Below the pieces are notes generated by a model. The model worked only from the letters and a program-made list of their open reading frames with translations, was not told where the DNA came from and did no database searches. A program made the translations under genes and the position numbers. From the NCBI GenBank assembly GCA_003433295.1, contig CP016202.1, positions 642,807 through 684,337 of the forward strand: 41,531 nt of DNA, written 5' to 3'. Of the stretch, positions 4,457 to 33,401 are shown piece by piece (position 1 is the stretch's first letter; each line of letters opens with the position of its first letter). Source of the DNA: Eubacterium minutum ATCC 700079. Lineage in GTDB: Bacteria; Bacillota; Clostridia; Peptostreptococcales; Anaerovoracaceae.

Positions 4457-4563
4457 CACTTTTCTGCGATCAAGTCTTTTTCCTAAGGCATCAAGTCACA
4501 TACTTGCCCGCCGACAGACGCGGCTACCCGTATATCTTTCCGCAAGATCCGGCAAAAGCGGCC

Positions 4564-4761
4564 GACGCAGATGAGAATAGGGATTAAAGTATGAACGACA
4601 CAGATAAGCATGGAAATTAAAGTACGAACGGCGCAGATGAGCATGGGGATTAAAGTACGAACGGCGCAGATGAGAATAGGAATTAAAATACGAATGACAC
4701 AGATGAGCATGGGAATTAAAATACGAATGACACAGATGAGCATGGGAATTAAAATACGGAT
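4564..4761. repeat. Six tandem copies of a 33-bp unit
   Basis: Six head-to-tail units of exactly 33 bp start at 4564, 4597, 4630, 4663, 4696 and 4729. Each has the pattern GACACAGATGAGCATGGG followed by AATTAAAATACGAAT with a few substitutions. The period is a multiple of three, so both strands stay open, but the predicted peptides (repeats of about MGIKIRMTQMS) have no start with a ribosome site. I treat it as a non-coding minisatellite. It lies between the polyferredoxin terminator and the DUF2712-like promoter. Confidence 0.9.
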
Positions 4762-25847: not shown

Positions 25848-26300
25848 TCATCGCAGAGCTTTTAACATATCCGCCACGCTGACTCCCCGTACCGGGTCTT
25901 TGAAATCCGGTGCTATTTCGGATAGCGGAACAAGCACAAAATCCCGATTGTGCAGATCGGGATGCGGAACTTTCAGCCGTTCTGTATCTATTATCTCATT
26001 TTCCAGATAGATTATATCGAGGTCTATCGTGCGCGGTCCCCAATGCTTTGCGCGGACCCGACCCAACCCGGTTTCTATGGCGAGCAGGGTATCCAGAAGT
26101 CTGTCGGGTTTCAGTCCGGTTTCCACTTCTATGACCATATTCAAAAAATCGTCCTGCTCAGTAAACCCGTAGGCCCGTGTTTCTATAACGGACGATCGTT
26201 TAATTATATCTCCGACTCTTTCAGAGATTTTTTCCAGGGCAGACGCGAGATAACTCTCTCTGTCGCCAATATTTGAACCCAAGGCAATCATGCACCTCAT
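25848..26300 (-). CDS. folK: 6-hydroxymethyl-7,8-dihydropterin pyrophosphokinase
   Basis: 150 residues, standard HPPK length. MIALGSNIGDR at the N-terminus, ETRAYGFTEQDDFLN in the middle and GPRTIDLDI with the catalytic Mg-binding aspartates are all present. It transfers pyrophosphate from ATP to hydroxymethyldihydropterin, the step before FolP. Start at 26300 forms an ATGA overlap with the folP stop; an ATG at 26291 is possible. Last gene of the pterin operon. Beyond the stop, another frame stays open for about 24 codons but has no start, so it is not annotated. Confidence 0.93.
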   Translation of the reverse strand: MRCMIALGSNIGDRESYLASALEKISERVGDIIKRSSVIETRAYGFTEQDDFLNMVIEVETGLKPDRLLDTLLAIETGLGRVRAKHWGPRTIDLDIIYLENEIIDTERLKVPHPDLHNRDFVLVPLSEIAPDFKDPVRGVSVADMLKALR

Positions 26301-27133
26301 ATCAGTTCCTCCAACATTCTCACGGCATGCAGATTTTCTTTGACATCATGCACTCTTGCCATCTCTATGTTATGCATCCGTGCGAACAGAGTTACCGCAA
26401 CGGTTCCAAACAACCTGTCCTCAGGTTCTTTTTCGTCCAGCAGCGTTCCTATAAAACTCTTTCTCGACACCGCAAGCAAATGCGGACAGTTCAGTTTTGC
26501 AAACACGTCTATGTTGCGCAACAATTCTATGTTGTGTTCGTAATTCTTGCCGAAGCCTATACCGAGATCGATTATGATTTTCTCGGGGTTTACGCCTTTC
26601 CTTACCGCGTAATCTCTCTGTGCTTCAAGATATTCGTACACCTCTTTTACCACATCGTCGTAGTGCGGATTTTTCTGCATCACATCGGGTCTTCCCTGTG
26701 TATGCATTATTACCACGGGCACTTCCGCGTCTGCGACCACATCCGCCATATTTTCATCAAAGGTGAGTCCGCTTATATCGTTTATGATATCGGCCCCCGC
26801 CTCAACTGCCGCCGATGCCGTGGTCGAATTATAAGTATCGACCGAAACGAGAATTTCAGGATACCTCTTCTTAACTTCCGCTATCACGGGGCACACTCTT
26901 TTGACTTCTTCCTCCGGAGACACCTTTTCGGCGCCCGGTCTTGTGGATTCTCCTCCCACATCTATGAAAGACGCGCCTTCAGATACGAATTTCCCGACCT
27001 TCATAAGCGCTTCTTCCGTTCCGCCGACTCTCGATCCCGCATAGAAAGAGTCGGGGGTGACATTTACTATCCCCATCATTTCCATCCCGGAAAATTCTTT
27101 TTTAGTTCCGTCTTTTAAAATAAAATGCTTCAT
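26297..27133 (-). CDS. folP: Dihydropteroate synthase
   Basis: 278 residues. GIVNVTPDSF near the N-terminus, FIDVGGESTRPGAEKVS and DIINDISG are the classical DHPS blocks. The enzyme joins hydroxymethyldihydropterin pyrophosphate with p-aminobenzoate and is the sulfonamide target. ATG at 27133. It is directly followed by folK with no folB (dihydroneopterin aldolase) between or fused, although folB commonly sits in such clusters. It is separated from folE2 by 160 nt with the short repeats at 27196-27232. Confidence 0.95.
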   Translation of the reverse strand: MKHFILKDGTKKEFSGMEMMGIVNVTPDSFYAGSRVGGTEEALMKVGKFVSEGASFIDVGGESTRPGAEKVSPEEEVKRVCPVIAEVKKRYPEILVSVDTYNSTTASAAVEAGADIINDISGLTFDENMADVVADAEVPVVIMHTQGRPDVMQKNPHYDDVVKEVYEYLEAQRDYAVRKGVNPEKIIIDLGIGFGKNYEHNIELLRNIDVFAKLNCPHLLAVSRKSFIGTLLDEKEPEDRLFGTVAVTLFARMHNIEMARVHDVKENLHAVRMLEELI

Positions 27134-27195
27134 CTCTAAAACTCACCCTTATTTCAACGATCCGCAACAAATCCATGTCTATGGCTACAGTGCAG

Positions 27196-27232
27196 ACCGT
27201 TTTAAATAGCGTTTTAAAAAACCGTTTTAAAA
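27196..27232. repeat. Three short tandem units around GTTTTAAA
   Basis: Units ACCGTTTTAAAT, AGCGTTTTAAAA and AACCGTTTTAAAA (12, 12 and 13 bp) lie head to tail between folE2 and folP. They are AT-rich and partly self-complementary. No promoter is obvious. Confidence 0.55.
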
Positions 27233-27293
27233 GTCCGTCATTCTTTTACGATCTGCGTTCAGCTTTGCGACAGCCTGCTTAGTTTTTGAATTT

Positions 27294-28055
27294 TTAACCG
27301 ACCACCATCGCATACGCCGAGTGATTATGTATGCTCTCCTGACTTTCAACTTCAATGCAAAAGTTTTCCACTTCTTTCAGTTTACTGACCCTCAATTTTA
27401 CCTCTCTGCACACATCCTCGACAAAACGCGGATTGTCGTACGCATGTTCTGTCACATATTTCTCGTCCGGTCTCTTCAAAAGTGAGTAGACCGGAGCGCT
27501 CGCCGAGTCCTCCGCTATTTCAACCAGATCTTCAATCCAGAGAAATTTTTTCATCTTTATCTTTATGGAAACGTCCGCCCTCTGGTTGTGAGCTCCATAT
27601 TCCGAAATTTCTTTTGAGCACGGGCATAATGTCGTTACCGGCGTTGTCACCTTCATATCAAATTCAAATTCATCTCCTGTCAGAGATGCGCTGTATTCAA
27701 TACCCACGTTGAAAAAAGACGCCATCCCGGATACCGGCGCAGTCTTTTCAATAAAATACTCAAAGTTCATCATCACAAACGCAGAATCCGCTTCAAGTTT
27801 TTCTTTGGTTTCCTGAAGAATTTTTTTGACGTGGTTCAAGTCCATTCGCCTGTTTTCCTGTATGATGCCGACAAATCTGGACATATGCGTTCCTTTTTGC
27901 TTTGCGTCAAGCCCTACAAAAAGGCTGACCGTCGCCGCCGTGCTTATCCAGTCGCCGTTCTTGTTCCTGAATTCCATCGGAACCACAAACCCTTTTATTC
28001 CAACCTGATTGAGGTATATATCTCTCCCGTCGATCTGCTTCTGAACGTCTTTCAT
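27294..28055 (-). CDS. folE2: GTP cyclohydrolase I type IB
   Basis: 253 residues. It converts GTP to dihydroneopterin triphosphate, the first step of folate and queuosine synthesis. FolE2-specific features are GTHMSRF (His56 in a metal/active-site block) and TTLCPCSKEISEYGAHNQR, where Cys144 is the probable metal ligand and His and Glu follow. FolE2 enzymes work with metals other than zinc. The ATG at 28055 follows GGGGAG; a GTG at 28061 that would overlap queD is less well placed. It lies 2 nt after the queD stop. Confidence 0.93.
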   Translation of the reverse strand: MKDVQKQIDGRDIYLNQVGIKGFVVPMEFRNKNGDWISTAATVSLFVGLDAKQKGTHMSRFVGIIQENRRMDLNHVKKILQETKEKLEADSAFVMMNFEYFIEKTAPVSGMASFFNVGIEYSASLTGDEFEFDMKVTTPVTTLCPCSKEISEYGAHNQRADVSIKIKMKKFLWIEDLVEIAEDSASAPVYSLLKRPDEKYVTEHAYDNPRFVEDVCREVKLRVSKLKEVENFCIEVESQESIHNHSAYAMVVG

Positions 28056-28057
28056 AC

Positions 28058-28414
28058 TCACTCCCCGTTATAAACTATTCCGGAAGTCTTTGTTTCCCAA
28101 ACTTCTATCTCATGCAGACATGCGTTATCCGTTCTGACCTTGGGTTCAAGTTTGTCCCAAATATACACGGCTATGTTCTCTGCCGTAGGCTGTTCTATGA
28201 AGTCATTGATATAATGATGATCGAATTCCTCAATCACTTCTTTTTTTACAAGTCTTTTTAAATCCACAAAGTCATACACCATATCCTCGTGATCCGGTTT
28301 GCCCTTTAATTTGACCACGAGTTTATATGTATGACCATGCAATCTTTCGCACTTCCCATGATAATTAATCAAATTGTGCGCGGCGTCAAATTCAAATTCT
28401 TTTACTAAAATCAT
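28058..28414 (-). CDS. queD: QueD/PTPS-family enzyme with CExxHGH motif (PTPS-I/III type)
   Basis: 118 residues. It acts on dihydroneopterin triphosphate. Zinc ligands are His13 and the HGH histidines (His26, His28). Residues 22-28 read CERLHGH, so both the catalytic Cys22 of QueD and the adjacent Glu23 of the PTPS-III type are present. As I recall the published subfamily scheme for COG0720, CExxHGH marks the dual PTPS-I/III class, which can supply both 6-carboxytetrahydropterin (queuosine) and 6-hydroxymethyldihydropterin (folate, bypassing FolB). First gene of the operon. The ribosome site lies in GGAG and GGGGTGG next to the 20-bp repeats. Confidence 0.85.
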   Translation of the reverse strand: MILVKEFEFDAAHNLINYHGKCERLHGHTYKLVVKLKGKPDHEDMVYDFVDLKRLVKKEVIEEFDHHYINDFIEQPTAENIAVYIWDKLEPKVRTDNACLHEIEVWETKTSGIVYNGE

Positions 28415-28420
28415 TCCACC

Positions 28421-28580
28421 CCGATCTCCGTAACCTCAGTCCGACCTCCGCAATCTCAGCCCGACCTCTGCAATCTCAACTCGATCTCCGTAATCTAAGT
28501 CCGATCTAAGCAATCTCAGCTCGATCTCCGCAATCTCAGTCCGATCTAAGCAATCTCAGTCCGTTTCCCGCAATCCCCGC
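28421..28580. repeat. Eight tandem copies of a 20-bp unit in the queD leader
   Basis: Units of exactly 20 bp start at 28421, 28441, 28461 and so on to 28561. The pattern is CCGATCTCCGCAATCTCAGT, with the last unit degenerate. On the transcribed (minus) strand each reads as ACTGAGATTGCGGAGATCGG, and most carry a GGAG like a Shine-Dalgarno core. The array ends 6 bp before the queD start codon, inside the predicted 5' leader. The rest of the gap 28415-28800 holds the promoter at 28640-28668. Confidence 0.92.
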
Positions 28581-33270: not shown

Positions 33271-33299
33271 ATTCTAAAGTATTTCACGGCATAAGTGAA
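33271..33299 (-). promoter_or_regulatory. Deacetylase promoter whose -35 lies in a tandem repeat
   Basis: Minus strand -35 TTCACT (33294-33299), 17-bp spacer, -10 TAGAAT (33271-33276). The -35 bases are the first six bases of the 36-bp repeat array, so each repeat carries a copy of the same -35-like element. Confidence 0.5.
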
Positions 33300-33401
33300 G
33301 TGAAAATTGCCCACAAAAAACAGCACGGTAGTGAAGTGAAAATTGCCCATAAAAAACAGCGCGGTAGTAAAGTGAAAATTGCCCATAAAAAACAGCGCGG
33401 T
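33294..33401. repeat. Three tandem copies of a 36-bp unit
   Basis: Units 33294-33329, 33330-33365 and 33366-33401 are nearly identical: AGTGAAGTGAAAATTGCCCA followed by TAAAAAACAGCGCGGT. The period is a multiple of three and an open frame runs through, but it has no ribosome site and is judged non-coding. It lies between the ATC-hydrolase-like gene and the deacetylase. The remainder of the gap 33217-33532 shows nothing else. Confidence 0.9.

Follow-up and report, generated by a model that had tools for sequence, protein, structure and literature searches.

The window, the whole 41,531-nucleotide stretch of Eubacterium minutum ATCC 700079 DNA that was analysed, carries a folate gene set on its minus strand. 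Gene families were assigned by calling open reading frames and comparing their products with Pfam and NCBIfam profiles, which gave the following features:

28058-28414, minus strand: COG0720 protein (PTPS) of the proposed PTPS-III type, 118 aa, candidate FolB bypass enzyme (PF01242, 5.7e-39, residues 3-118)
28331-28351, minus strand: active-site motif CERLHGH (Cys22, Glu23, His26, His28), read from the translation of the PTPS gene
27294-28061, minus strand: FolE2, GTP cyclohydrolase leading to dihydroneopterin triphosphate (PF02649, 4.6e-88; NF010200, 268.9 bits against 215)
26297-27133, minus strand: FolP, dihydropteroate synthase (TIGR01496, 4.7e-97, 324.6 bits against a cut-off of 162.6)
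25848-26300, minus strand: FolK, 6-hydroxymethyl-dihydropterin pyrophosphokinase (TIGR01498, 1.4e-44, 151.3 bits against a cut-off of 54.1)

The PTPS gene comes first and is followed contiguously by folE2, folP and folK. Overlaps of 4 bases join PTPS to folE2 and folP to folK, a gap of 160 bases separates folE2 from folP, and folE2 begins with a GTG codon, with an in-frame ATG two codons further. The PTPS and FolK matches listed above are the only ones in the genome. A first-pass annotation had described a contiguous queD homologue, folE2, folP and folK, with the Cys of QueD and the Glu of PTPS-III combined in CERLHGH; the gene arrangement was borne out by the reading frames and by both profile collections, and the motif was confirmed at its position. 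CERLHGH reads as CxxxHGH and as ExxHGH at once. Glu23 is the residue by which PTPS-III is recognised, Cys22 is that of QueD (PTPS-I), and the two together give the CExxHGH pattern of PTPS-I/III hybrids. The CxxxxxHGH pattern of PTPS-II was not found in the protein, in which Gly20 occupies the place of the Cys.

In an Rfam scan of the window, 0 families reached the gathering score. At 28421-28575 a 20-base unit is repeated imperfectly, in about 7.8 copies that end 6 bases before the PTPS start codon, and this repeat was not evident by eye in the last 220 bases upstream of the PTPS genes of six congeners. Two further tandem arrays are present at 4563-4758 (33-base unit, 5.9 copies) and 33294-33401 (36-base unit, 3.0 copies).

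The genome-wide search for FolB gave 0 matches in the 1,906,764 bases of the genome (2 contigs, 96.23% complete), and of 14 control genomes 10 were positive in the same search. The possibility that FolB is hidden or fused was rejected, because none was found and the search did detect the FolB-FolK fusion of the congener G003. The absence of folB, neither separate nor fused, is what the first reading of the locus had proposed. The distribution of the genes was followed in a set of 61 genomes, composed of the organism's own, 16 of its genus, 20 of its family and 24 of its order. FolK was present in 23 of them, FolB in 15 and a PTPS with CERLHGH in eight. The FolB and CERLHGH genomes are disjoint and together make up exactly the 23 genomes with FolK; all eight CERLHGH genomes belong to one genus and therefore do not represent eight independent events. 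Two kinds of folate gene set coexist within this one genus. The congeners G016 and G006, both with CERLHGH, carry PTPS, FolE2, FolP and FolK in the identical order, and G003 (locus L186) carries FolE, an HD-domain protein, FolP and the FolB-FolK fusion.

Contigs were scanned with an alignment of the eight CERLHGH proteins, which gave 152 relatives, the best 80 of which were kept. All 80 contain the CE motif, as CER (45), CEK (28), CEN (3), CEA (2), CEV (1) or CES (1), each followed by LHGH. In the fetched loci of these best 80 of 152 relatives, the proteins of the window used as queries found FolE2 in 69, FolP in 37 and FolK in 35. These counts, along with the order conserved in two congeners, indicate that the gene set is not a product of chance. 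FolB references gave no match in the same 80 loci, which the end of a contig frequently truncates. Genome-wide searches were applied to 49 genomes behind loci among these 80, and five of the 49 genomes (G001, G002, G007, G009 and G016) repeat the set of 61; FolB exceeded the cut-off in 0 of the 49 genomes behind these CExxHGH loci, and one match, in G357, lay under it. The replacement of dihydroneopterin aldolase, which had likewise been predicted, thus appears strongly supported by gene context and phyletic complementarity. A class-wide survey with a DNA pattern for CExxHGH was uninformative: it matched 5 of 293 genomes, including the organism's own, and the backwards control pattern matched more (12).

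A small HD-domain protein was observed in the folate gene set of four of the 13 FolB-bearing genomes examined, two of which had supplied query proteins, and most of the FolB loci counted had flanks of only 1.5 kb. Its positions are:

L186, 9160-9840: HD-domain protein
L187, 8229-8717: HD-domain protein
L027, 2328-2768: HD-domain protein
L032, 895-1362: HD-domain protein

The protein was found in 0 of the 80 CExxHGH loci. By inference only, it could be a phosphatase needed by the FolB route and not by the bypass.

The lack of a FolK match in 38 of the 61 genomes suggests that folate uptake may be common around the organism, and the pathway of E. minutum could accordingly be incomplete or non-functional. 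However, the four folate genes are intact and tightly packed, their order is kept in two congeners, and the folate set is also found in loci of other families, which makes dependence on external folate very unlikely.

The first-pass annotation had further predicted that one enzyme feeds queuosine as well as folate. This part is not supported, as the genome search detected neither QueC nor QueE. QueC gave three weak matches, the best with an E-value of 7.8e-4, compared with 4.0e-54 or better for the strong QueC of ten other genomes. Two of them, listed under the family cut-off, proved to be argininosuccinate synthase ArgG (593.6 bits against 334) and NAD synthase NadE (151.2 against 63.65). The third, with an E-value of 8.1e-4 or worse, may exceed the family cut-off of 22 bits if the matches next to it are counted in, as happens with similar matches in nearly all relatives. 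The single 25.8-bit QueE match was pyruvate formate-lyase activase PflA (275.0 bits against 231.75), and QueE scored 177 to 512 bits in five other genomes, the top score coming from the query's own genome. The queC and queE partners expected of a QueD are therefore represented in the genome by weak matches only, and a service to both folate and queuosine, judged on genes only, was not found. The PTPS most likely serves folate alone, given that QueC and QueE are not found. Tgt is present (7.8e-172), with QueA near it and one small reading frame between them (L133); these two enzymes act from preQ1 on. QueT, the sole transporter family searched, was not found in the genome. With the steps from 6-carboxytetrahydropterin to preQ0 seemingly missing and those from preQ1 on in place, the pattern reads most naturally as salvage, in which Tgt and QueA probably act on a precursor taken up from outside, for instance preQ1.

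In the related genomes, QueC was compared with the PTPS motif. Strong QueC (E below 1e-50) occurred in 10 of the 61 genomes, exactly those in which a Glu-less CxxxHGH PTPS is encoded; four weak PTPS rows without a readable HGH motif (L018, L019, L021 and L022; G022 twice, the second of G037, and G057) did not enter the motif counts. Two of these weak matches, L021 (G037) and L022 (G022), lie within open reading frames 1155 and 1035 residues long and are possibly PTPS-like domains in large proteins. The congener G007 has both kinds of protein, namely CERLHGH in the folate set on contig C66 and CANIHGH on contig C14, the latter accompanied by QueE, QueF (175.3 bits against 86.9) and QueC (168.0 against 150.3). 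All 49 genomes behind the named loci gave a PTPS match, and 12 of them contain QueC at an E-value of 1e-20 or better. In each of the 12, a second PTPS, always without the Glu, lies at most 1.4 kb from queC (eleven of the Glu-less motifs were read together, and the twelfth belongs to G356, which is the same genome as G007). Altogether, 52 distinct CExxHGH genomes were compared, and 40 of them show no strong QueC match, many of the 49 being metagenome-assembled genomes in which single absences are soft. Within the fetched loci of the 80 relatives QueC was seen twice, both times in Caloramator and each time with a separate CSNLHGH protein.

Two irregular cases were also noted. In the genome of L074 (G364, Fonticella tunisiensis), QueC is matched by two overlapping segments that lie in different frames (L183 and L184, covering model positions 95-209 and 1-103), which may reflect a split gene or a frame error in the sequence. 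One Negativicutes metagenome-assembled genome (G378) encodes two distinct CExxHGH proteins, CEALHGH and CEVLHGH (L088 and L099), along with a partial third PTPS match, and showed no QueC at E 1e-20.

A bifunctional PTPS-I/III hybrid, that is, one enzyme for folate and queuosine, would agree with the motif, with the presence of Tgt and QueA, and with the score of the protein in the QueD model TIGR03367 (103.2 bits; cut-off 89.25). Passages of PMC5041015, in which the PTPS motifs are defined, describe CExxHGH hybrids, some of them functioning in both pathways, and the protein from E. minutum may therefore still make 6-carboxytetrahydropterin. Nevertheless, QueC and QueE were not found for such an enzyme to work with, and 0 of the 52 distinct CExxHGH genomes had a strong QueC match without a second, Glu-less PTPS nearby. 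The argument from a dual motif to a dual function fails on these two points, the missing QueC and QueE and the separate Glu-less PTPS near queC in 12 of 12 QueC-bearing CExxHGH genomes, and the chance that the enzyme serves both pathways here is accordingly slimmer still than that of folate uptake.

The residues of the aligned proteins were compared between 82 CExxHGH rows, from which identical rows, including six of the 80 named loci, had been dropped, and 22 Glu-less rows, which hold one gene of one genome twice (L083 and L182) and include L014, reading CSNIHGH. Cys22 is invariant in both sets (82/82 and 22/22). All 82 CExxHGH rows have Glu23 and 0 of the 22 others do, the sets being defined by the motif; for Gln75 the counts are 81 of 82 and 0 of 22. 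His13, His26, His28, Asp65 and His66 are found in every row of both sets, and Glu107 in 81 of 82 CExxHGH rows and 20 of 22 others, the remainder being gaps. The conserved His and Asp-His/Glu are active-site residues of the PTPS family. A tree was made by a quick search after masking the columns of the Cys and the Glu, and it used 74 of the 104 rows, the CExxHGH rows having been reduced from 82 to 52. These 52 rows formed one side of a branch against 21 Glu-less rows with an SH-aLRT of 95, and L014 fell in neither group; the program warned that the columns were few, that five end branches, each of them Glu-less, were long and that long branches met. The relatives were collected through the patterns MIL[IVT]K[EL]FE and FDAAHNL[IV], and not through the motif, and are still near kin of one query. 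Since the CExxHGH rows form one clade, the residue differences are accounted for by shared descent just as well as by function. The least likely explanation is an ordinary QueD that has remained in a folate operon, with 6-hydroxymethyl-7,8-dihydropterin (HMDHP) supplied by an unrelated aldolase, which the TIGR03367 score would allow but which is opposed by the Glu found throughout the motif-defined clade, by the strict complementarity with FolB among FolK-bearing genomes and by the lack of a detected QueC or QueE partner.

What was observed, namely the genes and their conserved grouping, the motif, the genes not found and the phyletic pattern, makes it highly probable that the protein belongs to PTPS-III, as an enzyme of folate synthesis by which dihydroneopterin aldolase is bypassed, and that it does not supply queuosine synthesis here. 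For the reaction, and for what the Glu does in it, published relatives serve as the model. FolE2 would convert GTP to dihydroneopterin triphosphate, the side chain of which the PTPS would cleave directly to give HMDHP, with Glu23 redirecting its chemistry toward this product. FolK would then activate HMDHP, and FolP would join the product to pABA. Such a route would require neither the dephosphorylation step nor FolB.

The finding that Glu replaces or accompanies Cys in PTPS-III reportedly goes back to Pribat et al. in 2009, and the work of Phillips et al. in 2012 is said to be the source on CExxHGH hybrids of PTPS-I and PTPS-III. All the features compared, namely the family, the motif Glu, the folate gene set and the absence of FolB, are common to PTPS-III (FolB-bypass COG0720, ExxHGH) and the protein from E. 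minutum, and no tested feature differs. With the PTPS-I/III hybrids it has the motif CExxHGH in common, but no de novo queuosine pathway was found here to be served, and QueC-bearing relatives use a separate Glu-less PTPS near queC. It resembles QueD (PTPS-I, CxxxHGH) in the family, the Cys motif and the passing of the NCBI QueD model, and it differs in Glu23, the folate context, a separate group in the tree and the lack of detectable QueC and QueE. A passage of PMC5615194, citing its reference 96, states that in PTPS-III the Glu may take the place of the Cys or occur alongside it. The point on CExxHGH hybrids in PMC5041015 is credited there to its reference 55, and a passage of PMC5445326, which cites Phillips et al. 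(2012) on the same point, links FolE2 neighbourhoods to PTPS-IV, another subfamily. A legend in PMC5041015 notes that PTPS genes are multiple in Clostridium botulinum and in Rhodothermus marinus and that their gene contexts differ, so that a division of labour is known in kind. In the literature excerpts covering PTPS-III together with clostridial taxa, nothing was found beyond PMC5041015. Therefore, as far as these excerpts go, the Glu accompanying the Cys, the CExxHGH hybrids and the existence of distinct PTPS paralogs for folate and for queuosine have been published before. Modestly new is that CExxHGH here seems to mark a folate-tied clade, in which the Cys is invariant though most members show no QueC. 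This invariance, together with the Glu-less PTPS that always lies nearby where QueC is present, also leads to a more tentative proposal, possible but somewhat doubtful, that CExxHGH could be the signature of a dedicated folate clade and not of a bifunctional intermediate, that Cys and Glu might both be needed for the HMDHP reaction, and that Gln75 might be a second marker.

The scores of the QueD model have a practical side. In the congener G007 the folate PTPS passes TIGR03367 with 99.8 bits and the QueC-linked PTPS, with 87.7 bits, falls just under the cut-off of 89.25, a finding that is modestly new; the QueC-linked proteins of G004 and G052 both pass (100.4 and 109.1 bits). In G007, a pipeline with no model other than TIGR03367 to go by would give the name to the wrong copy. 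Automatic annotation can thus misread a folate PTPS as QueD, a reading that the present analysis settles for the locus in E. minutum.

Summarizing, the results describe ordinary biology with a useful annotation warning. Their addition to a known kind is that in the CExxHGH clade the hybrid motif appears to go with folate alone. Within this clade, a dual reading of the motif is no predictor of a dual function, and the role of the retained Cys thereby becomes testable.
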